Source of the DNA: Cupriavidus respiraculi
GTDB taxonomy: Bacteria; Pseudomonadota; Gammaproteobacteria; Burkholderiales; Burkholderiaceae
Direction of reading: 5' to 3'
DNA length: 64,000 nucleotides
NCBI RefSeq assembly: GCF_914271545.1
Contig: NZ_CAJZAH010000002.1
Coordinates: forward strand, 620,001 to 684,000
Below the pieces are notes generated by a model that worked only from the letters and a program-made list of their open reading frames with translations, did not search any database and was not told where the DNA came from. Shown in pieces: positions 10,120 through 31,183 of the stretch (position 1 is its first letter; every line of letters begins with the position of its first letter). The position numbers and the translations under genes were made by a program.

Positions 10120-10671
10120 TCAGGACTGGGCCAGACTGAAAACCGAATTCACCACGCGCGGCCGCGGCGCTTTTTCCTTCTCGGCCTTGGACCGCGCCAC
10201 CGCGGGGGCCTGCGTCACCGGTTCCTCGCGCATGTCGTGCAATACCGCCGGCTGACGGGCGCGCTGCTGGTCGACCAGATGCTTGAGCGAAACGGAGTCG
10301 AGATACTCCACCATCTTCTGGTTCAGCGTCGCCCACAGCTCGTGCGTCATGCAGCGGCCGACATTCTCGTCGCCGTGGCAGTTGCCCTTGCCGCCGCACT
10401 GGGTCGCGTCGAGCGGCTCGTCCACCGCGATGATGATGTCCGCCACCGTCACGTCCTCGGCCTTGCGGGCCAGGCTGTAGCCGCCGCCGGGGCCGCGCAC
10501 GCTTTCCACGATTTCGTGGCGGCGCAGCTTGCCGAACAACTGCTCGAGATAGGACAGCGAGATTTTCTGGCGCTGGCTGATGCCGGCCAACGTGACGGGC
10601 CCCTGGTCCTGGCGCATGGCCAGATCGATCATGGCGGTTACCGCGAAGCGGCCTTTCGTCGTCAGTCTCAT
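10120..10671 (-). CDS. iscR: IscR, Fe-S-sensing Rrf2-family regulator
   Basis: 183 residues. The winged-helix N-terminus is MRLTTKGRFAVTAMIDLA. The [2Fe-2S] ligands are the three cysteines around CGGKGNCHGDENVGRCMTH with the following histidine. The C-terminal tail is basic and alanine-rich. Holo-IscR represses the isc operon through type-1 sites; a close match overlaps the promoter just upstream at 10729-10760, so autoregulation is expected. The leader also contains a short A/T-rich hairpin at 10691-10707. Confidence 0.97.
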   Translation of the reverse strand: MRLTTKGRFAVTAMIDLAMRQDQGPVTLAGISQRQKISLSYLEQLFGKLRRHEIVESVRGPGGGYSLARKAEDVTVADIIIAVDEPLDATQCGGKGNCHGDENVGRCMTHELWATLNQKMVEYLDSVSLKHLVDQQRARQPAVLHDMREEPVTQAPAVARSKAEKEKAPRPRVVNSVFSLAQS

Positions 10672-10913: not shown

Positions 10914-11414
10914 CTACCGCCCCGCCTCGTCCGCCACCAGCCCGCGCTGCCGCAGGTCCGCCACCAGTCCGTCGCAGGCGTCCTCGATGTAGTCGAGCAC
11001 GCGTTCGAAGCCGTCGCCCTCGCCGTAGTAGGGGTCGGGGACTTCCTCGGCGTCGTGCCGGGTGGCGAACTCCATCAGCAGCCGCACCTTGTGTCGGCTC
11101 TCCGGAGGGCACAGGGCGCGCAGCCGTTCCAGATTGTCGCGGTCCATCGCCAGCACGAGATCGAACTGAGCGAAGTCCTCCCGCAGCGCCAGCCGCGCAC
11201 GCAGGCTCGACAGATCGTAGCCCCGGCTCAGCGCGCAACGTTGCGAGCGCGCGTCCGGGGCGTGGCCCAGATGATAGGCGTGGGTGCCGGCGGAATCGAC
11301 ATGCACATGGTCCGCGAGGCCCGCGTCCATCAGCCTGGCGCGCAGCACGCCTTCGGCGGTGGGGGAACGGCAGATATTCCCCATGCAGCACATCAAAACC
11401 GAAAATTTCTTCAT
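10914..11414 (-). CDS. Low-molecular-weight protein-tyrosine phosphatase, 5' end rebuilt by the prophage
   Basis: 166 residues. The catalytic P-loop is C10-X5-R16 in CMGNICRS and the general acid lies in VPDPYYGEG. It is a cytoplasmic phosphatase that removes phosphate from protein tyrosines, with possible roles in surface polysaccharide control. The prophage repeat 11377-11396 lies in codons for LMCCMGN, so residues 1-6 (MKKFSV) and everything upstream are phage DNA. The host's own 5' end, encoding MKRFSILMCCMGNI, is stranded at 58489-58533. The gene stays open and catalytically complete, but its promoter must now come from the phage side. No strong ribosome site precedes the start. Confidence 0.93.
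   Translation of the reverse strand: MKKFSVLMCCMGNICRSPTAEGVLRARLMDAGLADHVHVDSAGTHAYHLGHAPDARSQRCALSRGYDLSSLRARLALREDFAQFDLVLAMDRDNLERLRALCPPESRHKVRLLMEFATRHDAEEVPDPYYGEGDGFERVLDYIEDACDGLVADLRQRGLVADEAGR
11377..11396. other. Left prophage attachment core
   Basis: TTCCCCATGCAGCACATCAA is identical to 58496-58515. A further CAGAT precedes it at both ends with one mismatched base between, so the shared stretch is 25 of 26 bases. It sits in the P-loop codons of the phosphatase gene. The motif TTTTGAACA occurs at 11506-11514 just inside the phage and again at the other end (58437-58445), a candidate arm-type integrase site. Confidence 0.93.
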
Positions 11415-11607
11415 TTAAATCAAAGTGTTATGACGCTTCCGAGCACCGCAAAATGCGGCAAAAAGCGTCGGACACGTCCTAATAAAATCAGTCACTTACG
11501 GTTGGTTTTGAACAGCCGCAGCGGCGCACCTGCCATTTTACCCGGCAGCAGTCGGCGCCGCAGGGGCTCGGCGGCCAGTCGTTTACTCATCGCGCGGCAC
11601 GTCGATA

Positions 11608-11627
11608 TACTGTACATCCATACAGTA
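11608..11627. promoter_or_regulatory. LexA-type SOS box
   Basis: TACTGT-N8-ACAGTA, with perfect CTGT/ACAG half sites in the spacing used by E. coli and beta-proteobacterial LexA. It lies 15 bp before the ATG of the first cargo gene at 11643, so the cargo operon is probably repressed by host LexA and induced by DNA damage. Confidence 0.85.
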
Positions 11628-11642
11628 TTCCCGGAGCCCGCC

Positions 11643-11906
11643 ATGCCTGCCACCTACCCCGCCAAGTCCGTCTTCCTCGAAGTGCAATATTTCGGCGACC
11701 TCCGCGACGAGTTCCGAGTCTCCTGCGACGCGGTCACCGTCCGGTCCGGGTCGATCACGGTATCCGGAGGCGAAGCGCGGCGCCTGGGCGCCATCGGCTG
11801 GACGCCCGACTCCCTGTCCTTCAGCTGCTACGAGCAGAGCCACCGCTTCCCCGTCGGCCGCCCTACCGTCCTCGACGACGGTTCCGCCCGCTTCCCGCTC
11901 CTCTGA
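11643..11906 (+). CDS. Hypothetical protein, first gene of the SOS-box cargo operon
   Basis: 87 residues, starting at an ATG with a GGAG ribosome site 8 bp upstream. The sequence is rich in beta-forming residues (FLEVQYFGDL, GSITVSGGEARRLG) and has no membrane segment. I do not recognise a family. Its start is 15 bp downstream of the SOS box, so it should be damage-induced. The next gene starts 7 bp after its stop. Confidence 0.75.
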   Translation: MPATYPAKSVFLEVQYFGDLRDEFRVSCDAVTVRSGSITVSGGEARRLGAIGWTPDSLSFSCYEQSHRFPVGRPTVLDDGSARFPLL

Positions 11907-11913
11907 GCCTGCC

Positions 11914-12228
11914 ATGGGCAACAGCAAACTCGCCAACGGCTGCCAGGCCGCGTCGGGCACCGACGCCCCTGCCGCCCCTTCCCTGAACGGCATCCTCGCG
12001 CAAGTGCCCGGCGACTACGTCGCTGCGGCCAGCCTCACGCTCGCGCCGCCGACGGCCGCCGGGCCGCTCCACCAGGAGGTCGAGGTCGACGCTGGCCATG
12101 TCGGCCGGGTGCGCCTGTTCTTCGAGCAGAAGGTCGCGCGCCGCGGCCGGCATTCCCACCGGTTCTGGGCGGCGTATCGCGCCGAGCCCGTCCACGGCGC
12201 CTGGGATTCGGATACCCGTCAGACGTAG
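11914..12228 (+). CDS. Hypothetical protein of the cargo operon
   Basis: 104 residues. The N-terminal third (GNSKLANGCQAASGTDAPAA) looks disordered. The rest has a hydrophilic, arginine-rich C-terminus (VARRGRHSHRFWAAYR). No family is recognised. It lies 7 bp after the preceding gene, in the same direction and with the same codon style, so it is probably co-transcribed from the SOS-box promoter. The ribosome site is weak, which suggests translational coupling. Confidence 0.55.
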   Translation: MGNSKLANGCQAASGTDAPAAPSLNGILAQVPGDYVAAASLTLAPPTAAGPLHQEVEVDAGHVGRVRLFFEQKVARRGRHSHRFWAAYRAEPVHGAWDSDTRQT

Positions 12229-12288
12229 ACCTATACCGCCCCGTAGGTGGCCCGCGTACAACGGAAGGGCAACCCATAGGAGAAAACC

Positions 12289-12513
12289 ATGGCTGGGAAC
12301 GTGCATGTGGTGCCGGCAGACGGCGACGGCTGGGCGGTAGAGATCGAGGGCGGCGACGGCCCACTCGCGCGCTTCGACACGCAGGAAGAAGCAATCGCTG
12401 AGGGCACCGAGCGCGCCCAGCAGTACAGGGTCGAGCTGCTGATCCATGGCCGCGATGGGAAGATCCGCGCGCGCAACAGCTTCGGCCACGATCCGCGCAA
12501 CATCAAAGGGTAG
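12289..12513 (+). CDS. DUF2188 family small protein
   Basis: 74 residues with the DUF2188 pattern: an N-terminal NVHVVPADGDGWAVEIEGG strand pair, a helix with the FDTQEEAIAEGTE segment, and a C-terminal LLIHGRDGKIRARNSFG. An AGGAGA ribosome site lies 8 bp before the ATG. The family's function is unknown; members are common in rhizobia and Burkholderia, often near stress or DNA-repair genes. It is followed after 2 bp by the ligase gene. Confidence 0.85.
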   Translation: MAGNVHVVPADGDGWAVEIEGGDGPLARFDTQEEAIAEGTERAQQYRVELLIHGRDGKIRARNSFGHDPRNIKG

Positions 12514-12515
12514 CC

Positions 12516-13130
12516 GTGCCGGCCCCTGCCTTGGCCGACCTCTCGCCCATGCTCCTCACGGAGCGAAAGACCATCCCCACCACAGGCGACTGGCTCTACG
12601 AGATCAAGTACGACGGCTATCGCCTGCTGGCCGCCACGGGCGACCCGCAGCTGCGATCCCGCAACGGCCACGTGGCGACGCGCTGGTTTCCTGAGATCGC
12701 GGAGGCGATGGCGACGCTGGCGCCCGGCTGCGTCCTGGACGGCGAGGTGTGCGTGCTCGACGAGCTCGGCCGGCCGGACTTCGATCGGCTGCACCGGCGC
12801 GCGGCGCGGCGCGGCCGGCCCGCCGGTTCCGATCCCGTTGCCTATTCCGTGTTCGACGTGTTGGTGCTGGACGGCCAAGACATCCGCGACCAGCAAGTAG
12901 AGGACAGGAAAGCGGCGCTGCGCGAGGTGTTGGACTGCTGCGCGTCGGTGCTGCTCTACGTGCAGGATGTGGACGACGGCCACGGGCTGTATCAGCATGC
13001 CTTGGCCCTTGGGCTGGAAGGGATCGTGGGGAAGCGGCTGGGGAGCGCCTACCAGTGCGGCAAGAGGTCGCCGGACTGGGTAAAGGTTAAACGGCCCGGA
13101 GCGGTGCCGGCGGAGCGGTTCAAGCGCTAG
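12516..13130 (+). CDS. ATP-dependent DNA ligase, adenylation domain only
   Basis: 204 residues from a GTG start 2 bp after the DUF2188 stop. It shows the ligase nucleotidyltransferase motifs in order: motif I YEIKYDGYR with nucleophile Lys31, motif III VLDGEV at about 73-78, motif IIIa YSVFDVLVLDG, motif IV LEGIVGKR at about 167-174, and motif V DWVKVK at 187-192. It most resembles the ligase domain of LigD. It stops after motif V, so the OB-fold and motif VI needed for efficient step 1 in most ligases are absent. It may act with a partner, as a reduced nick-sealing enzyme, or be a non-ligating adenylyltransferase. The SOS box upstream of the operon suggests a repair role. Confidence 0.85.
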   Translation: MPAPALADLSPMLLTERKTIPTTGDWLYEIKYDGYRLLAATGDPQLRSRNGHVATRWFPEIAEAMATLAPGCVLDGEVCVLDELGRPDFDRLHRRAARRGRPAGSDPVAYSVFDVLVLDGQDIRDQQVEDRKAALREVLDCCASVLLYVQDVDDGHGLYQHALALGLEGIVGKRLGSAYQCGKRSPDWVKVKRPGAVPAERFKR

Positions 13131-13189
13131 CTCCGACAGGATATTCACGTAGAGTGCAAAGGCGCCCGCTCTCTTAAGGAAAGCGGCCC

Positions 13190-13828
13190 ATGGCAATATA
13201 TGTCGCCCCACCCATCAACGTCCGCTCTCCTTATAGGGCAAAAATGACCGAAGCCAGTATTGAGATCTACCTTTCCGAACTGCGCGCTCAGTGTCTAATG
13301 ACATACGTTGGCACTCAACAACTGGAATTGGCTTTGCAAAACGGGCTGCAGAATATGCAGGCAGGGTTCGGGACGGCGCCGGTTTTTGCCAACTGCCACA
13401 GCATACTGACCCATGCAAGCAACATTTCCAGACTGCTTTGGCCGATCCCCGGCAAGCGAAACGATCCACATAGGGAGTCCAGAGCTGAAAGGGGAGCAAA
13501 GTTGCGAGAATTGCTAGGGGTCGGCGATGATCACCCGCTCCGCAATCGCGCGCTGAGGGACCATCTCGAACACTTTGACGAGAGGTTGGATGACTGGGAT
13601 CGCACAAGCGAACACGGAAATTACTTGCAAGACAACGTGGCCCGATGGGGTGCTATCCCCGGACTCGCTGAGGGCGACTATATGCGCTGGTATGATCCCA
13701 CGACCCATGAGGTTCGCTTCCGCGGCGAAGCGTGGAGCATCGTCGACCTAGTTGAATCGGTGCGCCGTTTGCTGGCCACCATCGAACGTGTCAGCGAGGA
13801 ACGCCAACAGCCACGGACGGCTCGCTAA
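13190..13828 (+). CDS. Hypothetical protein with an Rx4-6H (HEPN-like) motif
   Basis: 212 residues, mostly helical and soluble. GC content is visibly lower than in flanking genes, which suggests separate acquisition. Around residues 122-129 it has RNRALRDH, which fits the R-x4-6-H motif of HEPN ribonucleases, followed by LEHFDERLDDW. This is a motif-level resemblance only. It sits in the cargo zone near the left attachment site, where phage defence and toxin genes are often carried. Confidence 0.6.
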   Translation: MAIYVAPPINVRSPYRAKMTEASIEIYLSELRAQCLMTYVGTQQLELALQNGLQNMQAGFGTAPVFANCHSILTHASNISRLLWPIPGKRNDPHRESRAERGAKLRELLGVGDDHPLRNRALRDHLEHFDERLDDWDRTSEHGNYLQDNVARWGAIPGLAEGDYMRWYDPTTHEVRFRGEAWSIVDLVESVRRLLATIERVSEERQQPRTAR

Positions 13829-13880
13829 ATCTCGAAACGGCGGTACCCTTAGACGGCGGTCCCCGTAGCACAATTGCCAC

Positions 13881-14072
13881 ATGAAGAGCCTCATTTCCCA
13901 TCTCGCAATGCTCCTAGGCATTTCTCGCCGACCGCAGACCGCGTATGAGCGCGGCCGTTCCGCATTCCCCCATGGCCACAATCCATATGAGCCCGGCACG
14001 GTGGCCCAGGCCCAGTGGCAGCGCGGCTACAACGAGCGAGAAGAAGAAGCTGCCCTGAGCCAGCAGTGGTGA
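13881..14072 (+). CDS. Small protein resembling ribosome modulation factor
   Basis: 63 residues. The pattern AYERGRSAF...GHNPYEPG...QWQRGYNE resembles the RMF core (A-x2-RG, then PY, then W-x2-GW). RMF-like small genes occur in several phages. If genuine it could act on ribosomes or dimerise them, but the match is short. It converges with the Rz gene, whose stop lies 8 bp away. Confidence 0.5.
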   Translation: MKSLISHLAMLLGISRRPQTAYERGRSAFPHGHNPYEPGTVAQAQWQRGYNEREEEAALSQQW

Positions 14073-14079
14073 TCCGTCC

Positions 14080-14625
14080 CTACGGCGAACCCGCGCTCAG
14101 GGAGTCGTAGGAGCGCTCGCAGGCCTGTCCGGCAACTCGGGCCGCGTCAGCATATTGAGCCAAGAGCCCCGCTCGACGGTCAGCGCGCTCGAGCACGTCG
14201 GCAAGCATTCCGGCGGGATCGCCGGCTGCCGCGCCTGCGCCGGCAGGGCCGGAATCCTTGCCGGCTCGACTGGCGGCGACCAGCTCGGCGACTCGGTTGC
14301 GCAGCCGATCAGCAGCAGCGCCAGCATCGCGGGCGTCGCGGCGCGCGCCCTCCAGTTCTTCCGTTGCAGCATTCGCTATCTCCATCTGCGCCGCAGTGCG
14401 GCGCTGTTCTTCCAGGCGCGCCGCGTCCACGGCTTTGAGCTGCGCATCGGCCTGTACCCGGCGCTCCTCGGCCTGCTGAGCCACGAGCCGGTCGATCTGG
14501 CTGGCCTTGCGCCAACCGTTGACTGTCCAGCCGATGCCGAACGACAGCACCGCCAGGCCGACGGCGGCGACAGCGCGCCAAGGGATCGCAGCCGCGGCGG
14601 CCCGGATTGCAGTGGTCTGGATCAT
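14080..14625 (-). CDS. Rz-like inner-membrane spanin
   Basis: 181 residues. One N-terminal membrane segment (about 15-33, VAAVGLAVLSFGIGWTVNG) is followed by a long coiled coil rich in Q, E, A and R (LVAQQAEERRVQADAQLKA). This is the Rz architecture: it spans the periplasm and joins an outer-membrane lipoprotein to fuse the membranes at lysis. A second reading frame inside it (14097-14372) encodes the matching lipoprotein. Its start overlaps the stop of the upstream lipoprotein gene by 4 bp. Confidence 0.85.
   Translation of the reverse strand: MIQTTAIRAAAAAIPWRAVAAVGLAVLSFGIGWTVNGWRKASQIDRLVAQQAEERRVQADAQLKAVDAARLEEQRRTAAQMEIANAATEELEGARRDARDAGAAADRLRNRVAELVAASRAGKDSGPAGAGAAAGDPAGMLADVLERADRRAGLLAQYADAARVAGQACERSYDSLSAGSP
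14097..14372 (-). CDS. Rz1-like outer-membrane spanin lipoprotein, nested in Rz
   Basis: 91 residues in a different frame entirely inside the Rz gene. It has a basic N-region (MLQRKNWRARAATPA), a hydrophobic core and the lipobox LLIGC, followed by a proline-rich mature part (SWSPPVEPARIPALP) typical of Rz1. Nested Rz1 genes are classical in lambda. The ATG at 14372 gives a complete signal peptide; the ATG at 14327 would leave almost no n-region. Confidence 0.8.
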   Translation of the reverse strand: MLQRKNWRARAATPAMLALLLIGCATESPSWSPPVEPARIPALPAQARQPAIPPECLPTCSSALTVERGSWLNMLTRPELPDRPASAPTTP

Positions 14626-14828
14626 CGTTCCCTCGTTGCGCAGTCCGCGTACATCGCGGCGGTCTTGTCGATGTGGGCCAGCATCGCCTTGCGGCCGGAG
14701 CCGCGGGGTAGCGTCGGCAGTGGCGGGCATGCGTAGCGCGCGGCCGGCGCCGCGGTTGGCTGGGCCGGTGGCGGCGGCGCGGGCGCGGCGCAGGCGGTCA
14801 GCAGCACGGTCAGCATGAGCGCCCTCAT
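14622..14828 (-). CDS. Second o-spanin-like lipoprotein
   Basis: 68 residues. It has a short signal peptide with lipobox LLTAC at about residue 13, then a Pro/Ala-rich stretch (APAPPPPAQPTAAPAA), and a C-terminal segment ending YADCATRER as in LysC/Rz1-like proteins. It overlaps both neighbours by 4 bp (ATGA), so the three genes are translationally coupled. It makes a second possible spanin pair with the upstream 146-residue membrane protein. Confidence 0.75.
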   Translation of the reverse strand: MRALMLTVLLTACAAPAPPPPAQPTAAPAARYACPPLPTLPRGSGRKAMLAHIDKTAAMYADCATRER

Positions 14829-15265
14829 CGGCCGCCCTCCTGCAGCTTGCGGTTCGCTGCTTCGATGGCGCTGTTGGCCCGCGCCCGCTCGACCTCCGTC
14901 AGCGGCGCCGGCGTGGTCGGCTTGCCCTGCGCCGCGCGCTTGGCGGTCTGCGCCACCTCCGCGGACGAGACGGCCGCCTCTGCCGCAGCGCCGGCCGCCG
15001 CCGAGGCCGTCTCGGCAATGGCGGTGATCTTCGGCGCCAGCGCCTGGAGCGTCAGGGCGTACGTGCGCTGCATGCGCTCGATCTCGGCCACGTGGTCAGC
15101 CCGCAGCTGGATCACCGCTTCCTGCGCCTGCCACTGCGCCAGCGCATAGCCGCCCACGGCGCCGCCCATGGCCACCACCAGCACCAGGGTCACGGTCTCC
15201 AGCATGTGGGCCACGCGGCGAAACACCGTGCGATGCCGTTCCAGCCATTCACGAAGCGTGTCCAT
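14825..15265 (-). CDS. Membrane-anchored coiled-coil lysis protein, possible second i-spanin
   Basis: 146 residues. A single membrane segment at about 24-44 (VTLVLVVAMGGAVGGYALAQW) is followed by a helical, alanine- and glutamate-rich region, the architecture of an i-spanin. The gene starts inside the end of the holin-like gene (17-bp overlap) and its stop overlaps the lipoprotein start. I infer an i-spanin or accessory lysis role from architecture and place; no family motif is recognised. Confidence 0.6.
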   Translation of the reverse strand: MDTLREWLERHRTVFRRVAHMLETVTLVLVVAMGGAVGGYALAQWQAQEAVIQLRADHVAEIERMQRTYALTLQALAPKITAIAETASAAAGAAAEAAVSSAEVAQTAKRAAQGKPTTPAPLTEVERARANSAIEAANRKLQEGGR

Positions 15266-15581
15266 CCAACCTCTCCTTGAGATACCGCACCTCAGCCGTC
15301 AGCTCGGCGATCGTGCGCTTCAGGTCCCCAATCTCGCGCAGCAGGTCGTTGCGCTCCTTGTAGGCGACGTCCGCGCGCTGCTCGGCGAGGTCGGCCCTCG
15401 CGTTGGCCTTGTCGAGCAGCCCCTCCAGCCGCTGGATGATGTCGATCTCGGCTTTGCTCTGCGCCCCTTCGACCTTGTCGTTGCGCCATCCCTTGCGAAT
15501 CAGCCACGCTCCGCCACCAATGGCCGCGAGGATCGCCCCCACCGCCCCGCTCACGCCCCCCGGCACCATCCACTCATTCAT
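15249..15581 (-). CDS. Holin-like small membrane protein
   Basis: 110 residues. The N-terminus carries one glycine/alanine-rich membrane segment (GGVSGAVGAILAAIGGGAWLI), followed by a charged coiled coil ending in a basic C-terminus. It lies directly after the endolysin gene. The start at 15581 has an AAGGGA ribosome site 8 bp upstream. Holins are too diverse for a confident sequence call, so this rests on size, membrane segment and position; the adjacent 146-residue protein is the alternative candidate. Confidence 0.6.
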   Translation of the reverse strand: MNEWMVPGGVSGAVGAILAAIGGGAWLIRKGWRNDKVEGAQSKAEIDIIQRLEGLLDKANARADLAEQRADVAYKERNDLLREIGDLKRTIAELTAEVRYLKERLDGHAS

Positions 15582-15603
15582 GTCCAATCCCTTCCGGTGG
15601 GCT

Positions 15604-16110
15604 TTACGCCTCGATGTCGGTGCCGCCGAAGGCGAGGTACTTCTCGCGCAGCAGCTCGAGCCGATGCTCTCGCTGGCCATACCCGGCGCCGGGCAGGCTG
15701 GCCCACTCCTTCCGGCATTTCTCCACCGCGGCGGCGAACCGGCCTTCGAGCAGATCGGGCAGCGCGCCGCGCCGGGTCACCAGGTAGGCGGCCACCTTGT
15801 CCTGCGACGCGGGCGAGAAATCGAACACCTTGCACGCCCGGCTTGCCCAGTCCCATGTGTCCGTCCGGATCTTCCCCGGGATGGCGGCCATGATCTGGTA
15901 CCGGCCGGCCGCGTCGCTCAGCCCCCAGCGCGTGAGCACCGCGCGGCGCGGGTGCCTGTCGTAGCCCGCGAACAGCTCGCCGCCGACGTTCACGTTGTAG
16001 CCATCGTCGCTGCCGGCAACCGTGGTGGTGCCTTCGCTGAAGCCAAGCATGTCGAGGAAAGCCGCCATGTTCTGGCCGCCGGGCAGTTGATCGGAGTGTG
16101 TGTATGGCAT
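15604..16110 (-). CDS. Endolysin, lambda R-type lytic transglycosylase (GH104-like)
   Basis: 168 residues. It aligns by eye with lambda endolysin R: AAFLDMLGFSEGT with catalytic Glu26, the NVNVGGELFAGYDRHPR segment, AGRYQIM, and WASLPGAGYGQ near the C-terminus. It cleaves peptidoglycan glycan strands, producing anhydro-muropeptides. There is no signal peptide, so export depends on a holin. A GGAGG ribosome site lies 5 bp before the ATG, and a terminator-like hairpin lies just upstream at 16127-16149. Confidence 0.93.
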   Translation of the reverse strand: MPYTHSDQLPGGQNMAAFLDMLGFSEGTTTVAGSDDGYNVNVGGELFAGYDRHPRRAVLTRWGLSDAAGRYQIMAAIPGKIRTDTWDWASRACKVFDFSPASQDKVAAYLVTRRGALPDLLEGRFAAAVEKCRKEWASLPGAGYGQREHRLELLREKYLAFGGTDIEA

Positions 16111-16126
16111 AGGCGCCTCCAGAAAC

Positions 16127-16149
16127 GAAAATGCCCGCTCGGGGCGGGC
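16127..16149 (-). terminator. Rho-independent terminator-like hairpin (minus strand)
   Basis: The stem GCCCGC/GCGGGC (16133-16138 with 16144-16149) is followed in the minus direction by ATTTTCG. It separates the methyltransferase/tail region from the endolysin gene and would limit read-through into the lysis genes. Confidence 0.6.
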
Positions 16150-16228
16150 TACACAGCGGCCATCCAGTCGGCCGGGAATTGCAAAGTAGAATGCGGGCTC
16201 AGCGCGTCGTTTGGCGAAAAGACCACCA

Positions 16229-17587
16229 ATGAACAAGAAAATCGAAGCAGCTCTGAATATCCTCCGTTGTCCCCGCACCGGCACCCGTCTCCACATCGAA
16301 GTCGACGAACTTGTGTCAGAGGCCGGAGAGCGTTATCCGATCGTAGATGGCAAGCCGATTCTCGTGCGGCGCATTCAGCCACTGCACATCACGCCGCCGG
16401 ACGCCGCGGTGGTATCGCAGAACATCGCCACCTATTCACTGCCGCCGGAGATGGCCACGCGCCCGGGTTTCAAAATCCACATCGGTTCGGGCAACGTGCC
16501 CTGCGATGACCCGAGCGTGATCTCGATCGACATCCTGCCGAACACCAACGTCGATATGGTGGCGGAGGCAGAGGCGCTGCCCTTTGCTTCAGACGCCATC
16601 ACCTATGCCGAGTCGGGCGCTGTTTTCGAGCACCTTTACGACCCTCTGGCTGCGGTCAGGGAAGTGCGCCGCGTGCTGAGGCCGGGCGGCCGGTTCTACA
16701 TCGACACGGCTTTCCTGCAGGGCTACCACGGCTTCCCGTGCCACTACTTCAATATGACTCCGCAGGCTGTGGAGACATTTCTTGTCGATGACTTCAAGCT
16801 GGTGAAGTCCGTAGTCCCTGCGAGCGGCAGCCCTGCTATTGCCGTCGAGAACCTGCTGCGCAAGTTCATCGAAGCGCTGCCCCGGACGGACCGCGAGCGA
16901 TTGCTGACCATGCAGACAGCAGACCTGCTTGGCGAGCTTTCGGACGAATCAAGGCGGGCTCCACTGGTGGCTGCCATGTCGGAGCATATGCGCCGCTCGA
17001 TGGCCGCCAGCGCGTACGTGGTCGCGGAAAAGCCCAGCCACTACGCCAGCAGACCGGCCGAATCCGAGGCGTTCGCTGAACTGAAGCGCAACTACTACGC
17101 CGCCCGGGTCGGACTGATGCAGCGGTTCTACGAATTGGAGCACTACCGCGGCCGTGTCTTGGAGATGGATGCCACGATCACTGGCGTGGCCCCCTCGCAA
17201 TCCCTCGATACCCTTCTTCAGGAATCGCTCGTCGACGACACGCTCAGTCCCCTAGCATGGGAGAAGGCCACGCAATCACTGGCCCGAGCCACAGCGGAGG
17301 TCTCTATCGTCCGGGATGACTGGATCAGGAAGTTTCTGACCATGGAAATTCAGCCGGACAAGGTGACGGTCCTAACCTATGTTGATCCTGAGCAGGAGGC
17401 CGCCAGGGAGGCAGAGGTGCTCCGACTGAAAGATGAAAAGCGAGCGGCGTGGGCCCGCGCGCATCAACTCGAGGTGGCGCTGCAAGCGACGTACGCAAGC
17501 AGTTCGTGGCGCATCACGGCGCCGCTACGAAAACTGATGAGCTTGCTACGCGGACGATCGGCTGCCGAAGCCAACGTGCAGCGATGA
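16229..17587 (+). CDS. SAM-dependent methyltransferase with C-terminal surface-glycan-type domain (cargo gene)
   Basis: 452 residues from the ATG at 16229. Residues about 8-45 (ILRCPRTGTRLHIEV, YPIVDGKPILV) look like a Trm112/UPF0434-type lead domain. A class I methyltransferase core follows, with IHIGSGNVP as motif I, an acidic loop (SIDI) and VLRPGGRFYIDT as the motif VI-like strand. A helical region follows. The C-terminus SSWRITAPLRKL is a tail found in glycan-modifying enzymes. It is transcribed opposite to the surrounding late genes and differs in base composition, so it is probably a lysogenic conversion gene altering surface polysaccharide. The substrate is unknown. Confidence 0.75.
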   Translation: MNKKIEAALNILRCPRTGTRLHIEVDELVSEAGERYPIVDGKPILVRRIQPLHITPPDAAVVSQNIATYSLPPEMATRPGFKIHIGSGNVPCDDPSVISIDILPNTNVDMVAEAEALPFASDAITYAESGAVFEHLYDPLAAVREVRRVLRPGGRFYIDTAFLQGYHGFPCHYFNMTPQAVETFLVDDFKLVKSVVPASGSPAIAVENLLRKFIEALPRTDRERLLTMQTADLLGELSDESRRAPLVAAMSEHMRRSMAASAYVVAEKPSHYASRPAESEAFAELKRNYYAARVGLMQRFYELEHYRGRVLEMDATITGVAPSQSLDTLLQESLVDDTLSPLAWEKATQSLARATAEVSIVRDDWIRKFLTMEIQPDKVTVLTYVDPEQEAAREAEVLRLKDEKRAAWARAHQLEVALQATYASSSWRITAPLRKLMSLLRGRSAAEANVQR

Positions 17588-17617
17588 TGCTCTTAGCATA
17601 TGCCGCCTCCGCCAACA

Positions 17618-18028
17618 TTAAGCCGGGGGTGTCGGCCAGACTACGTCGCCACCGGATATGTTCATGCGGTTGAGTGCAATCCGGTACTGCTTCCATGCCA
17701 AAAGGCTTTCCACCTCATCAGTGGTAGCCATATCCAGATCGACAGCATCCTGAAGGGGCGCGATCCGCGTTGCCGCTTCGCGCAAGAGCATGTCGCGCTT
17801 CTGACTCGCAAGAGCCAGCATTGCCTCGTCTGATGGCGCTGGCGGCGGCACTGCCACAGGAAACCCATCCTCACCGGGATGAATCTCGAATCCGGAGGCA
17901 GAAGCAGAGATGAGCGCCTCATACTGGTCCATTGGCACCTCGATCGCGTCTTCGGGGATATTGGAACCATTAACTTCCCGGCAGTAGAAGCCGAGCTTGC
18001 TAGGCGAATAGAGCATTTGGTTTTCCAT
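17618..18028 (-). CDS. Tail fibre assembly chaperone
   Basis: 136 residues. It begins MLYSPSKLGFYCREVNG after a short lead, as in phage tail fibre assembly proteins, and ends with the family's ALNRMNISGGDVVWPTPP. The middle helix (ASQKRDMLLREAATRIAPL) is also typical. It lies directly downstream of the tail fibre gene and helps fibre folding and attachment. Confidence 0.88.
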   Translation of the reverse strand: MENQMLYSPSKLGFYCREVNGSNIPEDAIEVPMDQYEALISASASGFEIHPGEDGFPVAVPPPAPSDEAMLALASQKRDMLLREAATRIAPLQDAVDLDMATTDEVESLLAWKQYRIALNRMNISGGDVVWPTPPA

Positions 18029-18029
18029 T

Positions 18030-18917
18030 TCAATTCCCGAGTTCGATCCAGTGGATGACGGATGTCTGTGAAAAATTGTGCCGCAGCGAGAGTTGCGAGT
18101 TACTGATCGGACTTGCCACCGCATTGACCGTCGCGTCGGTGCCAGCATGGCTGCACACGGCTACCATCCAAGTATTCGGAAACGTAATGGGAAGGGTGAT
18201 TGTCTGCGTCACACCCGCAGGGACGGCCGTGCCACCCCATTGCACGATGAGACCTGGGTTGCCGGGAAATTTCTGGTAGCTGATCGACTGATTTGCACCA
18301 GTGAATTGTCCCAACTGGACCGGGTGGCCACTCTTCGTTGCAGCAACCACCTGGGGGGCGCCTCCAGAACAGCTGACCAGCACCCACGAATTGGCATCGG
18401 CCTTCCACACCACCAATGCCTTACCATTCGCCGCCATTTCCCCACCCTGGAGGGGCGCGTGTCCCATGCCAATCACCGGACGCGCGCCGATGCCGTTGAC
18501 GTTCAGTGTCGAGGCACCCGTGTTTGCCGTGCCGACCCTAAACCATAGCGCCATTCCGTCAATCAGCGTGGCAACCGGGGGCGCATAGTCAACGACATAT
18601 GAGTTTGCGGCGCCGGTGTCTACGCCGGTGATCGCGTCGCCTCGCTGAATGCTGTACCCGATACCAAGCGCCAGCGCATCATCAGCGGCGCTCGACAACT
18701 CGTAGCCACCCTGCTGGGCCAGCGTCTTCATTTGTGCGAATAGCCAGGCCGCCTTCTGGTCGCTGACCTGTTGCACCTTGTTGAACTGCTCGACCGAGGG
18801 CGGCGTCGCACCGATGAAGGCCCACCCCTGGTCGTACTGGTTCTGGTCGATCGCCTCGACGTCCCCGTTCGTGCCCCAGACCCGCTCAAAGTCGTCGAAG
18901 AAATTCACGTCTGCCAT
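18030..18917 (-). CDS. Tail fibre protein
   Basis: 295 residues from the ATG at 18917. The N-terminus (MADVNFFDDFERVWGTNG) should bind the baseplate. The centre has PPSVEQFNKVQQVSDQKAAWL and a repetitive beta-rich region (TGASTLNVNGIGARPV) common in phage fibres. The C-terminus is the probable receptor-binding part (ISNSQLSLRHNFSQTSV). It is followed by its assembly chaperone. Confidence 0.85.
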   Translation of the reverse strand: MADVNFFDDFERVWGTNGDVEAIDQNQYDQGWAFIGATPPSVEQFNKVQQVSDQKAAWLFAQMKTLAQQGGYELSSAADDALALGIGYSIQRGDAITGVDTGAANSYVVDYAPPVATLIDGMALWFRVGTANTGASTLNVNGIGARPVIGMGHAPLQGGEMAANGKALVVWKADANSWVLVSCSGGAPQVVAATKSGHPVQLGQFTGANQSISYQKFPGNPGLIVQWGGTAVPAGVTQTITLPITFPNTWMVAVCSHAGTDATVNAVASPISNSQLSLRHNFSQTSVIHWIELGN

Positions 18918-18918
18918 T

Positions 18919-19581
18919 TCAGATACCCCTTGCCATAACACCCACGCCAAAGCCGAAAAAGCCTTGATTGCGGAAACCGAACGGCCGGTCGTTGGACGCG
19001 GTGATGATGCGCACGCCAACGCCGGCCGCCTTCGGCACCCACCGATACGGATTGCTGAGCAGCACGTCTGCCGGGCCCGGAATCCGGTTGATCCAGACCC
19101 GAATGGAGGCGGTGCCAGCGTCCTCGACGATGACCTGATCCACGCCGAAAATGGGCTTCAGCGAAGCAACGATCTCAGGCGCCGTGCCGTGGCCGTTGTT
19201 CAGGGCAATCTTCCAGTACAGCAGCTTCCGGTACTCCGGATCCTGCAAGGTCGTCGGCGCGGCCAGCGCGTTCTCGTGCGCGCGCCGGATGCGCGCCTGC
19301 CCGAACCCGGCCACGTTCGTCTGCCCGACGAAGCCGAAGAACTTCACATAGACAGCTTCGTCGATGACCCGCGACAGCCCGACGATTTCGCCGATGCCAT
19401 CGAGCTGGCGCCCCTCCGCCGCGTCCAGCCAGCGCTTCTCGTACAGGTCCTTCAGCGCGCCCTGCAGGCCCTGCGCCGGCTTGAGCAGCGCGCGCACCAG
19501 CGCCTCCAGTTCCGTCTTGCCAACGAACTGGCCCAGCCAATTTCCCCAGGCGATGCCGGGATGGTCCTGTTCCAGATCCAT
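18919..19581 (-). CDS. DUF2612 tail/baseplate protein
   Basis: 220 residues. The segments DGIGEIVGLSRVI, EYRKLLYWKIALNNGHGTAPEI and the C-terminal GFGVGVMARGI are typical of DUF2612 proteins, which sit between baseplate J and the fibre in many myophages. It is the likely counterpart of P2 gpI, linking the baseplate to fibres. Its start overlaps the stop of the baseplate J gene by one base. Confidence 0.82.
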   Translation of the reverse strand: MDLEQDHPGIAWGNWLGQFVGKTELEALVRALLKPAQGLQGALKDLYEKRWLDAAEGRQLDGIGEIVGLSRVIDEAVYVKFFGFVGQTNVAGFGQARIRRAHENALAAPTTLQDPEYRKLLYWKIALNNGHGTAPEIVASLKPIFGVDQVIVEDAGTASIRVWINRIPGPADVLLSNPYRWVPKAAGVGVRIITASNDRPFGFRNQGFFGFGVGVMARGI

Positions 19582-21032
19582 CAGGTCACCTCGATGCGGG
19601 ACAGGTCAAACTTCGCCACCTCGAATTCCTGGATGGTGATGTTGCCGTCGCTGTAGTCACCGGGCCCCGGTACGAATGAGGGGTCGTCGGAATGGGCAAA
19701 CGACAGTTCCACGTGAGCGATCCCGGGGGTGGCATAGATGCCACCGAAGAACCTCTGTTGCACCACGTCTTGCCCGATGTCGAGCGTCGCGCCAGTCGCT
19801 GCGATCGCCGCCGCTACCTTCTCGAAGCCGTCCGCCGGAAAGGCTTGCTCGATCGGCGGCAGCAGCGTGAGCACCACCCGCACCCAGACATAGACGCGCT
19901 CCGGCCGATCAAACCGCACCAGGTGCGTCTTCCCGTCGTCCCCGACGACTGCCACCTCGACGGACCCATGCGACGCAATCCCGGCCGCCTTGACGCGGTA
20001 GATGGCGTCCGCGATCTCGTCGTCCAGGCCGCCATCTACCACCACATGAATGCTGTGCGGCGGGCGGCCGACCGCGTCAGTGACGTCGGTGTCGTTTTCG
20101 AAGTCTCGGATGGCCGTGATGCCGGCCACGCGATCTCGGATGTTTGGCGCGATGCTGGGCTTCGTGGCAGCGCCCAGCCGGAACAGGCCGGTCGGATACC
20201 GGGCCCGCAGTTGCGCGTCGTTCTCGGCGAGCCGCCCAGGAGAGCCCTGCTGCAGGTTGTTCACCGCATCCCAGCCCGCCACCGTGGTGACGATGCCATT
20301 GAGGTCGCCCACGGCGGCCTCCTCGCTGCCGGGCTCTACCGTCTGCGCCAGCACCGGCGAGCCGATGCGGGAGAACGTGAGCGGGCCGTCGAGCACCACG
20401 GCGAACGCCACACGCCCATCCGACACCAGGCGCACCGCCGCGCCGTCGCTCGACACCCCCAGGCCGGTCGCGCTCAGGGCGGCCACGAGGCCAGCCAATA
20501 CCTCCGCGATGGTGGCCGTGCCGTCCGACGTGTAGCTGTGGTCGGTGCCGTTGACCCGAACCGTGTAGACCGTACTGGCCATGACCGTCGGCACAATGGT
20601 CACGTCCGCTGCTGCGCCGGCCTGGATGGTCACGTCGGCCGCCGTCGCCCAGATGGTCTGCGTGATGCGGTGGCGAATCTGCGAGCCGGCCGGCACGGTA
20701 ACGCCCGCACCGCCGTAGGCGACCACATAGGCGCGGGAGCGCTCTGCCGCCAGCCGCGTCACGCCCGTGAAGGAGACGGAATTGTCCAGCGATGTGCCCG
20801 AGGCCGATCCGGGGTACATGGCGAAGTAGATGCCCTCGGCCTGTTCCCACAGCGCCGCCTCACGCTCGGCGAACGTGTCGATCAGCAGGCCGAAGATGGA
20901 ATCCGGCCGCGTCTCGATGTCGCCGGCGAATCCGGCGTTGCGCATGCCGGCCACGAGGTCTTCGACGATCTCCTGCCGGATCTCCGGCAAGCGCGGCCGC
21001 ACGAAGCCGTCTGGGGTTACGCCGTATGCCAT
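19581..21032 (-). CDS. Baseplate J / gp47-like protein
   Basis: 483 residues. It opens MAYGVTPDGFVRPRLPEI, carries SASGTSLDNSVSFTGVTRLAA, the family's LARNAQLRARYP-like LAENDAQLRARYP, and a C-terminal TLDIGQDVVQQRFFGGIYATPGI region. Baseplate J forms the wedges that change shape at tail contraction. It lies between the gp25-like and DUF2612 genes, the normal order. Confidence 0.92.
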   Translation of the reverse strand: MAYGVTPDGFVRPRLPEIRQEIVEDLVAGMRNAGFAGDIETRPDSIFGLLIDTFAEREAALWEQAEGIYFAMYPGSASGTSLDNSVSFTGVTRLAAERSRAYVVAYGGAGVTVPAGSQIRHRITQTIWATAADVTIQAGAAADVTIVPTVMASTVYTVRVNGTDHSYTSDGTATIAEVLAGLVAALSATGLGVSSDGAAVRLVSDGRVAFAVVLDGPLTFSRIGSPVLAQTVEPGSEEAAVGDLNGIVTTVAGWDAVNNLQQGSPGRLAENDAQLRARYPTGLFRLGAATKPSIAPNIRDRVAGITAIRDFENDTDVTDAVGRPPHSIHVVVDGGLDDEIADAIYRVKAAGIASHGSVEVAVVGDDGKTHLVRFDRPERVYVWVRVVLTLLPPIEQAFPADGFEKVAAAIAATGATLDIGQDVVQQRFFGGIYATPGIAHVELSFAHSDDPSFVPGPGDYSDGNITIQEFEVAKFDLSRIEVT

Positions 21033-21033
21033 A

Positions 21034-21408
21034 TCAGGCTACCTTTCCAGAAAGGGTGTAGCGGCGGGCCACCAGTCCTTCGGTGGTGTCCGCCTCGAAT
21101 TCGACCTCGAGCGTGCGGCCCGCGCGGTCGACCAGCAGGTCGATCCGGCGCACCAGCGTCACGCCCGGCACCGCGGCGATGCGCGCGCGAAAGATGGCTT
21201 CCAGCTGGGCCCGGTCCGGGCTCTTCACGAGGACGGCGTCCAGATACGGCACGCCGAACGTCTCGTCGAGGAACCACTCGCCAAGGAAGGCCAGCAGCGT
21301 CACCTTGATCTGCTGCGCAATGCGCTCCGCCCCGTCCACCAGCACCAGGTCGCCAAGCGGCGATATCTCCAGCGTGTGGCCGGGTGTCAATGCGATGTCG
21401 ATGGTCAT
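21034..21408 (-). CDS. Baseplate wedge protein, GPW/gp25-like
   Basis: 124 residues. The DLVLVDGAERIAQQIKVTLL segment, GEWFLDETFGVPYLD and the C-terminal beta strands fit the gp25/GPW baseplate family, in which an EPR-like loop nucleates sheath assembly. It precedes baseplate J, and its start overlaps the spike gene stop by 4 bp. Confidence 0.85.
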   Translation of the reverse strand: MTIDIALTPGHTLEISPLGDLVLVDGAERIAQQIKVTLLAFLGEWFLDETFGVPYLDAVLVKSPDRAQLEAIFRARIAAVPGVTLVRRIDLLVDRAGRTLEVEFEADTTEGLVARRYTLSGKVA

Positions 21409-22082
21409 GAGTGCGGGAGCGACGTATTGCCGCCCATGCTGTCGGTGTGTCGGTGGCCATCCTCGATCGGAGCGGTCGATGTGATCACGCCGCCGGTGTG
21501 GGCAACATCGCCCACCAGCTGCATGGCCGGCCCGCCGCTGACACCACGGCCCGCCATGCCCTGTTCGTAGGTGAGCAGCTTCTTGAAGAGGGCCGGCATG
21601 TCCACGATGAAGGTGCCCGGGCCGAGGAGGATGGCATCGCCCCCGGGGGTCAGCTTCAGCGACAGAGCGCCGTACTGCACGCTGACGTTGTCCGTGTCAG
21701 CCGCGGCGGTGCCCGGCCGCAGCATCGGCGTGGCGAAAGCGTCCGACAGATCGAACTGGCGGGGATCGTCCGGCGCCGTGTCGTTGCCCGCCAGCCAGCC
21801 CTCCAGCGCGCGCTCGGAAAAGGACAGCATGACGGCGTCGCCCGGCTTCAGCGGCACGGTGACCAGCGCCTGCTGGCCGTTCATGTCGCCGCACGGCCAG
21901 CACACCGGCACCTGCACGATCTGGGGCGCGGCGAGGATCTGGCCGTTGGCCAGCTGCTTGGGCAGCGCGGGGCGCACCACCGCCGCCGTGCCGTCGTAGG
22001 AGACGATCACGCCGGGCAGCGAGGTGTGGACCTCCGCCAGCTCGGCGGCGATGAGTTGCCTCAGTTCGGTGACGTCCATCAT
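21405..22082 (-). CDS. Gp138-type baseplate spike protein
   Basis: 225 residues. The N-terminal domain (EVHTSLPGVIVSYDGTAAVVRPAL) is an OB-like domain of the Gp138 type. It is followed by PGDAVMLSFSERALEGWL and a C-terminal beta-helix-like part (LKLTPGGDAILLGPGTFIV). It forms the membrane-piercing tip of the tail. It overlaps both neighbouring genes by 4 bp. Confidence 0.83.
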   Translation of the reverse strand: MMDVTELRQLIAAELAEVHTSLPGVIVSYDGTAAVVRPALPKQLANGQILAAPQIVQVPVCWPCGDMNGQQALVTVPLKPGDAVMLSFSERALEGWLAGNDTAPDDPRQFDLSDAFATPMLRPGTAAADTDNVSVQYGALSLKLTPGGDAILLGPGTFIVDMPALFKKLLTYEQGMAGRGVSGGPAMQLVGDVAHTGGVITSTAPIEDGHRHTDSMGGNTSLPHS

Positions 22083-22990
22083 TTCTTCGCCTTGGGAGGT
22101 GCGTACCGGTCAACCAGCTCGAGCTCGGTCTGCCAGTCCCCGCCCTCCGAGTCACCGACATGCTTGACCGACTCGGCCCGGTAGAAGCCTTCCGTGGTGC
22201 GGCTCTCCAGCTTGACTAGGTCTCCGGGGTTGATCTGCGGCAGCAGCAGCGACCGCACGCGCCAGCCGTTGCGCTGTTGCGCCGCGCTGACCAGGTTCGC
22301 CCGGTCGCCGGTGCGCTCGTCCCTGACCCGCGCTTTCTCGCGGGCGCCCTCCCGGGTGCGCTCGGGGTATCCGATCAACCCGCTGTCGGCAGCCAGCGCT
22401 ACGGTGGTGCGCATCGTGGTGCCGCGCTTGGCAACCACCTGCAGCGTCTGGTTCTGGGTCGACCATTCCAGCCCGGTGCCCTGCACCACCTTGTGCAGCG
22501 CCTGGCGCGCGGCGCCGTAGAACGAAAAGCCGTTCTGCCAGACCCGGTCCGGTGCGTTGTCCGGCATCACCAGCGGCAGGCCCATCTGCTTGGCGATGTC
22601 GCGGATGATCATGCTGGCGCGCGCGCCAGGCCCGTAGCCGAGGGACACAGCCGTGTCGCGGATCTCCACGTAGCCGTCGCGCACGTCCAGCTCGGTAACC
22701 ACGTCCGGGCCGTCGTAGAAGGTGTGGCCGAACGTCACGGCGCCGGCGGCCAGCAGCACCGGCCCGTCTTCCTCGGCGTAGCCGGCATACAGCAGGCAAC
22801 GGACGTCCGGCTCCTCCAGCGCGCGCCGCGTGTCCGGCTTGAGGTTGTAAATCCGGATCTTGTACGGGTTCGGCTGCTCGCTTGCGTCCTTGGTGATGTC
22901 GAAGGTGATGCGGATGGGGGGGCGAATCTCGACGCCCTGCTGGCCTGCCTTGCCGAGTTGCAGCCGGTAATCCCTATTGAAGCGTGCCAT
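22079..22990 (-). CDS. Baseplate hub-like phage protein
   Basis: 303 residues from the ATG at 22990. It starts MARFNRDYRLQLGKAG and has IRITFDITKDASEQPNPYKI with an NLKPDTRRALE segment, as in conserved phage hub/tail proteins that sit between the plug and the spike. The C-terminal part (PQINPGDLVKLESRTTEGFY) resembles gp27/gpD-type hub domains. The functional call rests largely on gene order. Confidence 0.72.
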   Translation of the reverse strand: MARFNRDYRLQLGKAGQQGVEIRPPIRITFDITKDASEQPNPYKIRIYNLKPDTRRALEEPDVRCLLYAGYAEEDGPVLLAAGAVTFGHTFYDGPDVVTELDVRDGYVEIRDTAVSLGYGPGARASMIIRDIAKQMGLPLVMPDNAPDRVWQNGFSFYGAARQALHKVVQGTGLEWSTQNQTLQVVAKRGTTMRTTVALAADSGLIGYPERTREGAREKARVRDERTGDRANLVSAAQQRNGWRVRSLLLPQINPGDLVKLESRTTEGFYRAESVKHVGDSEGGDWQTELELVDRYAPPKAKK

Positions 22991-23309
22991 CGACCAGGTC
23001 CTGTTCATCGAGATACACCAGCGCCACCTCACCCGCCGGCAGCGCTTCCCTGCTGATGTGGTCCCGGCCATCCGGCGTCAGCGCAACGAGCTCGCCGGCC
23101 GGGACATCCAGATGGCGGAACCGGTTCAACAGCCGGGTGTCCGGCACCACGGCCACGCCGGCGATCACGACCTCGTTGTTCGCGTTTTCGATGGTCAGCG
23201 CCCACAGCTCAGCTTCGCTGTTCCAGGACAGCCGCAGGAAGAACGTGCGGTCATCCAGCACGACCTCGGCCAAGCTGTCGTTCGCGTCCAATACGGGAAT
23301 GGTGAACAT
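22974..23309 (-). CDS. Baseplate plug-like protein
   Basis: 111 residues. A short beta-rich protein beginning MFTIPVLDANDSLAEVVLDD with FLRLSWNSEAELWALTI and a C-terminal GEVALVYLDEQDLVDG. This is the pattern of the phage baseplate plug family, which closes the central baseplate channel. It overlaps the hub gene by 17 bp. Confidence 0.75.
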   Translation of the reverse strand: MFTIPVLDANDSLAEVVLDDRTFFLRLSWNSEAELWALTIENANNEVVIAGVAVVPDTRLLNRFRHLDVPAGELVALTPDGRDHISREALPAGEVALVYLDEQDLVDGTLQ

Positions 23310-23315
23310 CTGGGA

Positions 23316-23876
23316 TCAGCCGAAAATGCGTTTAAGGTCGGACCGCTGGCGCGGCGTGGCGTCCTTGGGCGTCACCTTGCCGGCGTTCGTCTTGGTGGCG
23401 CCGGCCTTCTGCTTGGCTTTGCCGGCGCGCACCTTGTCGGGCGGTATGGCCACCGTGCGCAGCGTGGCCTTGCGGATCTTCCGGAAGCCAGCCGCGATGT
23501 GGAAGAACTCGCCCTTGCCGTCGCGGCTGATCTTGCAGGTCTCCATCACCATGTCGACATACATGTCGATGCCCGTCATCACGGTGAGGGTCGAACGCGC
23601 GGCATGGATGGCGCGCAGCGCGTCCTTGGCGCTGATCAGCTTGCTCCGCCCGCCGGCGCCAAAGAGCAGCGTTCCGGCACCCGTGATCCAGCCGGACAGG
23701 TCCAGCCTCTCCGATTCCAGGACAACGTGATCGGTAATCGGTGAACCCTCCTCGACCGCATACTCGGTCGCCCGGCTGGCCAGCTCGGTGTTCTCGTCGA
23801 GCAGCGCGTCGAGCATGATGGCGCCGACGCTGGTCTGGGCCACCCCATCCTCGAAAACCAGCGATACCGTGCTCAT
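23316..23876 (-). CDS. Baseplate/tail tip protein (Dit-like N-terminus)
   Basis: 186 residues from the ATG at 23876. The N-terminal half (LMLDALLDENTELASRATE-like, then EEGSPITDHVVLESERLDLSGW) fits the Dit-like N-terminal domain found in myophage baseplate proteins. The C-terminus is lysine- and threonine-rich (AGKAKQKAGATKTNAGK). It starts in a 4-bp overlap with the tape measure stop, and the plug gene follows by 6 bp. Confidence 0.75.
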   Translation of the reverse strand: MSTVSLVFEDGVAQTSVGAIMLDALLDENTELASRATEYAVEEGSPITDHVVLESERLDLSGWITGAGTLLFGAGGRSKLISAKDALRAIHAARSTLTVMTGIDMYVDMVMETCKISRDGKGEFFHIAAGFRKIRKATLRTVAIPPDKVRAGKAKQKAGATKTNAGKVTPKDATPRQRSDLKRIFG

Positions 23877-25756: not shown

Positions 25757-25989
25757 GTCTTTCCCCGGGCGGCCTGCGCGGCCTTCTCTTCAGCCGCCGC
25801 AACCGCGTCCAGCAGTGCGTTGGCCTTGAGCACGTCGACCAAGTCGATATGCCCCTGTCTGGCAGCCTCAAGGCTGTACATCCCCGCCTTGATGGGCCGC
25901 CAGATGATCAGCTCAGATTCGAAGTCGGCGCGGAACCGTCCGACAGCTTGCCCAGCAGCTTTTGGGCCGACCCAGAAAGGCCGACCCAC
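25753..25989 (-). CDS. Frameshift extension of the tail assembly chaperone (gpT-like part)
   Basis: The -1 frame is open from the slip site at 25995-26001 to a stop at 25753 and gives about 80 residues after the shift, ending LLDAVAAAEEKAAQAARGKT. It overlaps the end of the upstream chaperone gene and has no good independent start: only a GTG at 25989 without a ribosome site. This is the gpG/gpGT arrangement of lambda and most long-tailed phages. The fusion product would be about 214 residues. The stop overlaps the tape measure start by 4 bp. Confidence 0.82.
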   Translation of the reverse strand: MGRPFWVGPKAAGQAVGRFRADFESELIIWRPIKAGMYSLEAARQGHIDLVDVLKANALLDAVAAAEEKAAQAARGKT

Positions 25990-26396: not shown

Positions 26397-26821
26397 CAGG
26401 CGTTACCCCCGACGAAGTAGTTGCTCTTGCCCGTCTCGATCACCCATTCACGGTTGCCGACGGTGATGCCAAACTCGGCGTTCGGAAGCTTCGTCACCCA
26501 GGCCTCCGAGGCGTTGAAGACCGTCCGACCGCGCAGGTCCGCCACCGTGATCGGGAAGATCCCGTCGCCGCCGCTGATCCGGTCCACTTGGAGCAGCGCG
26601 GACAGGATGTCGTTGCCTGTGCTGGTCTGCTGCAGCGTGATGGTGACGCGGCACCGGCGGTCCGAGGACATCGCCCGGGCCACTTCTCCGTCCGCGCCGG
26701 ACACCGAGGTCACCCCGTCGCCGACCTCCTCGATGCTGATGAAGGTGTCCTCGGCGAAGCCGGACAGCACCGCCGCGCCGACGGTCACGGTCACCCGCGA
26801 CGGGTCATAAGTTCCAGTCAT
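26396..26821 (-). CDS. Tail tube protein (DUF3277-like)
   Basis: 141 residues, beta-rich (VTVTVGAAVLSGFAEDTFIS, RRCRVTITLQQTSTGND) with the C-terminal GNREWVIETGKSNYFVGGN. The pattern matches the DUF3277 phage structural protein family, which follows the sheath in this phage type and forms the tail tube. It lies 15 bp after the sheath gene. Confidence 0.85.
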   Translation of the reverse strand: MTGTYDPSRVTVTVGAAVLSGFAEDTFISIEEVGDGVTSVSGADGEVARAMSSDRRCRVTITLQQTSTGNDILSALLQVDRISGGDGIFPITVADLRGRTVFNASEAWVTKLPNAEFGITVGNREWVIETGKSNYFVGGNA

Positions 26822-26836
26822 GTTCGTCTGCTCCGA

Positions 26837-28192: not shown

Positions 28193-28205
28193 GCGTGGCT
28201 CCAAT

Positions 28206-29925: not shown

Positions 29926-29927
29926 GC

Positions 29928-31162: not shown

Positions 31163-31183
31163 GATTTCCTCGTGGAAATGAAG

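Follow-up and report, generated by a model that had tools for sequence, protein, structure and literature searches.

How can a host gene remain a complete reading frame when one end of a prophage lies within the codons of its active site? This question is raised by the ORF at 10914..11414 (minus strand) of the window, that is, the whole 64-kb stretch of DNA that was analysed. The ORF, which begins MKKFSVLMCCMGNICRSPTAEG... (minus strand, 11414-10914) and encodes 166 aa, matched the Pfam family LMWPc (9.5e-41), and its best solved relative was PDB 4lrq (5e-44), with CMGNICRS and DPYYG kept. We take these motifs to be the C-x5-R-S loop and the DP(Y/F) acid motif. With the P loop C-MGNIC-R-S near the N-terminus and DPYYG present, the protein has the features of a low-molecular-weight protein tyrosine phosphatase, and its frame stays complete, as a preliminary description of this DNA had claimed. 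We consider it very probable that a prophage is integrated at the active-site codons of this gene and that its attP rebuilds the N-terminus.

The attachment core and the rebuilt phosphatase frame

A 20-bp att core, TTCCCCATGCAGCACATCAA, was found as an exact repeat at 11377-11396 (left core) and at 58496-58515 (right core, the int-side junction). A third site was absent from the 64-kb window even when up to 3 mismatches were allowed, and 0 of 100 shuffles matched. To the left of the core, CAGAT was also common to both copies, beyond one mismatch at 11376. In the phosphatase, the core takes up codons 7-12 plus two bases of codon 13; it contains the catalytic Cys codon, and the Arg codon lies beyond it. 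The preliminary description had placed an attachment core in the P-loop codons, and the exact repeat at both ends, with the integrase (int) and excisionase (xis) genes beside one copy, bore this out. Of the residues LMCCMGN that the core was said to encode, L-M-C-C-M-G stood, whereas only two bases of the N codon belong to the core. Both junctions carry the identical core, as in a lambda-type integrated prophage, and no tRNA gene was found in the 64-kb window. As a structural reading, attachment of the prophage within the phosphatase gene is hardly in doubt.

Subsequently, the reading frames at the two junctions were compared. In the hybrid phosphatase gene, host DNA makes up everything from the core to the stop codon, and phage DNA the first six codons; the translations of the left and right ORFs, together with the joined flanks, confirmed that the phosphatase body to the left of the core belongs to the host. 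Translation and 18-mer scoring assigned to the phage an ATG and five further codons (MKKFSV; 11397..11414, minus strand). At the other junction, translation revealed the stranded native N-terminus, MKRFSILMCCMGNI, followed by a phage-side stop (58489..58533, minus strand). When the host flanks were joined as the predicted empty site, a single open phosphatase frame, MKRFSILMCCMGNICRSP...AGR, was obtained, whose ATG lies 17 nt past the uvrB stop codon. When the phage ends were joined as the predicted attP, a 14-codon ORF, MKKFSVLMCCMGNI, was read before a stop. Since the joined host ends and the joined phage ends read as such frames, integration exchanges six codons, and both hybrid frames agree with the earlier proposal of a phage-supplied start and six-codon N-terminus (MKKFSV for MKRFSI). 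These findings suggest the following mechanism: the P-arm flank of the attP core would bring an ATG and the next five codons, compatible with the host enzyme; each integration would swap the N-terminal codons of the phosphatase and leave the frame whole; and the native start would be left behind uvrB as a 14-codon stub. The exchanged codons presumably form the first beta strand of the fold.

The phage codons fit the phosphatase N-terminus beyond chance. MKKFSV scored 25 (BLOSUM62) against the N-termini of the genus plus the host's own, a score reached by none of the 94,164 other prophage 18-mers (both strands) and by 1 of 200,000 random 18-mers of equal composition. The reference set consisted of 54 of 55 loci, including three duplicates; the locus of G068 was missed by the pattern. 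Because the phage codons lie outside the exact core, homology for recombination alone does not explain the kept N-terminus. The phage 18-mer was identical at 12/18 positions to its own host and at 14/18 to two other species, which may be no more than a hint that it was derived from another lineage. The caller used for genes in the window, a simple script based on hexamers, preferred a phosphatase start at 11384, which lies within the core and past the phage codons; the start was taken as 11414 because relatives have the same frame and start. The target thus remains a full open frame with an element-supplied N-terminus, as in integrators of the dusA/prfC kind.

The prophage, its integrase and the unoccupied locus

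The element between the cores (11397..58495; 47,119 bp core to core, delimited by gene calls and PHROGs) is a prophage of the contractile-tail type, 47.1 kb in length, with int and xis at the end far from the phosphatase. All 10 phage proteins scanned matched PHROGs as structural, replication and other phage genes (integrase, excisionase, terminase, portal, major head protein, tail sheath, baseplate, DnaB-like helicase, endolysin, and RecE-like exonuclease). The xis gene (57145..57339, plus strand; Pfam Exc, 1.4e-16; phrog_629 excisionase, 8.3e-15) adjoins int (57342..58424, plus strand). The latter encodes a lambda-family integrase of 360 aa, which matched lambda Int (1z1b, 3.8e-43) over residues 4-355; the domains Arm-DNA-bind_1 and Phage_integrase were detected, and the arm-binding, core-binding, and catalytic parts are full length. 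Aligned to lambda Int, the protein has Asp at the position of the first catalytic Arg and an Arg one residue later. This GQDR, against GQR in lambda Int, was also observed in seven relative loci (L006, L007, L009, L010, L042, L043, and L047); the motif strings were identical in L007, L009, and L047, and those of L006 and L043 were alike around GQDR. The identity of Int was 34.5-35.6% among the best 20 matches of 115 phage records, and that of the head protein was 41.7% at most among the best 12 of 1375 records; by neither protein was a close phage relative on record among the matches listed. As separate observations, the phage encodes a cytosine-5 methyltransferase-like protein (54043-55839) that did not reach the NCBIfam cut-off, and amid minus-strand genes lies a plus-strand ORF (16313-17587) that matched a methyltransferase weakly.

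Both arms carry candidate integrase sites. The exact arm-type sequence TTTTGAAC occurs twice in 64 kb, once per arm (11506-11513, plus strand, in the P arm, and 58437-58444), and in the P' arm the near copies TTTCGAAC and TATTGAAC stand beside it, giving three arm-type repeats, TTTCGAAC, TTTTGAAC, and TATTGAAC, between int and the right core (58426..58455, plus strand). The shorter TTGAACA has one extra copy at 8877, in host DNA. With the IHF consensus used for motif search, WATCAANNNNTTR (AATCAAAGTGTTA), the window gave a single strict match, which is located beside the left core (11418..11430, plus strand). At the level of motifs, the arm-type sites in both arms and the IHF site correspond to a lambda-type attachment region. 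Following the lambda convention as we apply it here, the P arm adjoins the phosphatase and the int (P') side adjoins uvrB; the phage leader of the phosphatase is, judged by these motifs, the P arm of attP. Int presumably recombines at this core, and excision of the prophage would still work.

The host genes that flank the element are uvrB (58551..60635, minus strand), which in the empty site lies directly upstream of the phosphatase, and iscR (10120..10671, minus strand), which lies downstream of it, as determined by locus comparison. The phosphatase was present (E <= 1e-30) in 53 of 60 genomes of the genus Cupriavidus, this one included, and uvrB was located upstream on the same strand in all 52 others, at 17 to 1969 bp (last to first residue). 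By the same measure, the distance in this host is 20; the nearest value is 17, in G033, and the next is 113. The survey of distances covered 55 loci, of which two duplicated genomes already counted and one (L040) came from another family. The unoccupied locus was accordingly confirmed to be uvrB-phosphatase-iscR, as previously proposed, and a phage-free relative with the phosphatase not beside uvrB, a case that would speak against the proposal, was sought among the 52 and not found at gaps of up to that maximum. The gene was missing in the remaining 7 of the 60 genomes. In 5 of these it is absent between uvrB and iscR; the contig of G015 stops past uvrB, and the G011 assembly has a completeness of 54%. 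Broken-looking phosphatase frames were also noticed, with an in-frame TAG in G009 (L069) and frameshifts in G028 (L039/L068) and G079 (L064); in G079 a sequencing error is likely, because its uvrB is split too.

Two core motifs (at most 1 mismatch) were detected in 1 of the 60 genomes of the genus, namely this one, and at least one motif in 52 of the 60. The exact 20-bp core was present in 0 of 52 relatives, five of which differ at one base (three duplicate loci were dropped). No phage-free genome of the same species was found. Among 249 genomes of the family, the motif without mismatch was confined to this genus, and two exact copies occurred only in this genome (search at up to 2 mismatches); six other genomes of the family had two or three matches, and in every one of the six at least one match carried 2 mismatches.

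We also searched for other users of this site, as the preliminary description had suggested, in viral contigs and in the genomes of the genus and the family, and none was found. The exact core had 0 matches in viral contigs. A degenerate core matched two viral contigs, which look like filamentous-type phage contigs; judging by their listed ORFs, neither match falls in a phosphatase gene. Neither viral contigs nor phage records yielded this attP. The closest relatives of Int in genomes and viral contigs were 58-62% identical, and one of them is carried by C. gilardii CCUG 38401; weaker matches were found in G063 and G016 (36-38%), plus two partial ones. Neither uvrB nor a phosphatase gene was found at the int-side flanks of the relatives at L009/L047/L093, L010, L042/L091, and L043/L092, so the phosphatase target is not a trait of the integrase group: its members use several sites, and the phosphatase site was observed in one case. 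In the C. gilardii element, no 13-mer was common to the int-side junction and 60 kb of the phage side; in that of G034, only four 13-15-mers were common to the junction and the phage side, and these look like chance. L006 and L007 end at int. Since att repeats were not found and these two loci end at int, the targets of the relatives are known only from the neighbours of int. At L009 (7093-8070; C. gilardii), the int relative abuts an ORF that is amidohydrolase-like by sequence reading, with its N-terminal part apparently cut.

The phage leader and phosphatase expression

In the lysogen, the leader of the phosphatase is phage DNA. The preliminary description had stated that both promoter and leader become phage DNA, and the latter part held; as to the promoter, none was detected on the minus strand of the leader in a simple sigma-70 scan. 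The best -10-like hexamer, TAAAAT, ends 120 nt upstream of the phosphatase start, with no -35 that passed the scan. The calculated pairing with the anti-Shine-Dalgarno sequence was +0.6 kcal/mol for the phage leader, compared with -5.8 at the host's own native start, and the phage leader paired more weakly than all 54 genus loci scored. Lysogeny may change phosphatase expression: transcription of the hybrid gene would start in phage DNA and differ from the native, uvrB-linked state. The hybrid phosphatase is presumed to be made and active.

The same features are, however, what would be expected if the integration silenced the gene, with an attP leader that has no working promoter or ribosome site and lysogens that make little or no phosphatase. 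The open frame would then reflect a resemblance of attP to the conserved coding DNA around the crossover. Such silencing may be tolerated, because 5 of the 60 genus genomes have uvrB and iscR with no phosphatase between them, and for function we regard it as a serious rival, albeit a rather unlikely one. Against it, the in-frame ATG and the kept N-terminus lie outside the core and go beyond what recombination matching alone explains. Moreover, the missing Shine-Dalgarno sequence is weakened as a proof of silencing by the native loci themselves, 27 of 54 of which (two duplicates) pair at -0.5 or weaker, although the phage leader is still the weakest. In addition, TANAAT ends 7 nt before the native ATG in 11 of 52 genus genomes (e.g., L020, L024, and L036), which suggests that the native phosphatase mRNA may be leaderless in those 11 genomes.

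We also considered, as a quite unlikely alternative, that the phosphatase is a reporter of the prophage state, in which occupation of the P arm by Int, Xis, and IHF would cover the start, uvrB transcription would run antisense into int, and the phosphatase, uvrB, and excision would interact. The start codon sits between the core and the IHF site, with three bases between the IHF consensus and the ATG, and the P-arm site TTTTGAAC is 91 bases from the ATG. uvrB and int converge across a gap of 126 bases (58424-58551), in which a simple scan found no terminator-like site, and antisense transcription from uvrB into int is possible. Furthermore, a LexA-type palindrome, CTGTACATCCATACAG (11610..11625), lies in the same leader region ahead of a divergent phage gene at 11643; the window has one other LexA-type match, a less canonical one at 46202. 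The proposal, however, draws on motif matches, and gene order alone could yield this layout. A full circuit that senses the integration state, in which the P arm doubles as the phosphatase leader and uvrB, cut off from the gene, reads antisense into int, would be doubtful at best. As a last alternative, the repeats would be no attachment site but old duplicates of a phosphatase start that have nothing to do with a mobile element. This would be consistent with the 84% identity of the wider 44-bp repeat pair around the core, but it is scarcely credible: the matching bases cluster in the core, int and xis adjoin one copy, and a second copy was found in none of the other genus genomes.

The cassette that follows the LexA-type box (11610-13130, plus strand) encodes 87-aa and 104-aa proteins of no known function, a DUF2188 protein, and a LigD-like ligase domain. 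In the same genome, L002, L003, and L005 have a LexA-type box and homologues of one to three of the cassette proteins; at L005 the box is not directly ahead of the DUF2188 homologue.

Comparison with known elements

Among the phage matches listed for Int, the integrase of Escherichia phage D2 ranked top (34.7%). In the record of this phage, the one examined for the group, a partial CDS for isocitrate dehydrogenase is annotated close to int. Phages of the D2 kind rebuild the 3' end of icd and are in this the mirror case of the prophage described here.

Insertion into the 5' end of a gene with replacement of its codons is better documented for dusA. In the portions of the reports available, elements in the 5' end of dusA replace N-terminal codons, including a beta strand, and restore the frame (PMC4482086; for IMEVchUSA3, PMC8409611), and IMEVchUSA3 was shown to bring a new promoter, with a drop in expression in E. 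coli (PMC8409611). As far as these portions go, the present prophage is like the dusA elements in that it enters a conserved enzyme gene at its 5' end, replaces codons, and restores the frame. It differs in its target and integrase; with a phosphatase as the target, it falls outside the integrase family defined by dusA. In addition, the dusA residues affected are, in those portions, not known to act in binding, whereas the phosphatase core spans the catalytic Cys codon, with the encoded residues unchanged. Similarly, the available text on SXT/R391 ICEs describes insertion in the 5' end of prfC with a new promoter and N-terminus (PMC2791158, PMC8409611); unlike the prophage here, SXT/R391 is a conjugative element with another gene and another integrase.

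Phage HK022 is located between torS and torT, and prophage DNA drives torS, according to the part of the report available (PMC6814406). In both cases, att-adjacent phage DNA takes over a neighbouring host gene, although here this is seen for the leader, and transcription would follow it. As that part describes it, the HK022 site is between genes, with torS on the int (P') side and no rebuilt codons, whereas the phosphatase is on the P-arm side. The accessible part of a report on the PhiM247 prophage of Lactobacillus crispatus describes an attB that includes 96 nt of the msrA 5' end (PMC10763512); to that extent it is alike in having attB in the 5' end of a coding gene, and it differs in gene and phage. 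The attachment sites given in the available part of PMC7266877 are selC and one intergenic site. No report of a phosphatase attB was found among the open-licence PMC papers listed, and three that name a tyrosine phosphatase do so, in the parts available, in other contexts.

Insertion at a 5' end with rebuilding of the gene is thus already known (dusA, prfC), and what is new is the phosphatase target; a core that lies in active-site codons is unusual. The phosphatase is an added target gene for elements that enter 5' ends with replacement codons. Because the core runs through the codons of the catalytic nucleophile, the host and phage copies of the core should be held fixed, and a core constrained by the enzyme would provide the phage with an attB that is stable within a genus. 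The anatomy of the leader makes it directly testable whether the excision machinery contends with the host-gene start for one stretch of DNA. If the circuit on the P-arm leader were true, lysogeny would rewire a repair-phosphatase pair to sense the integration state of the prophage.
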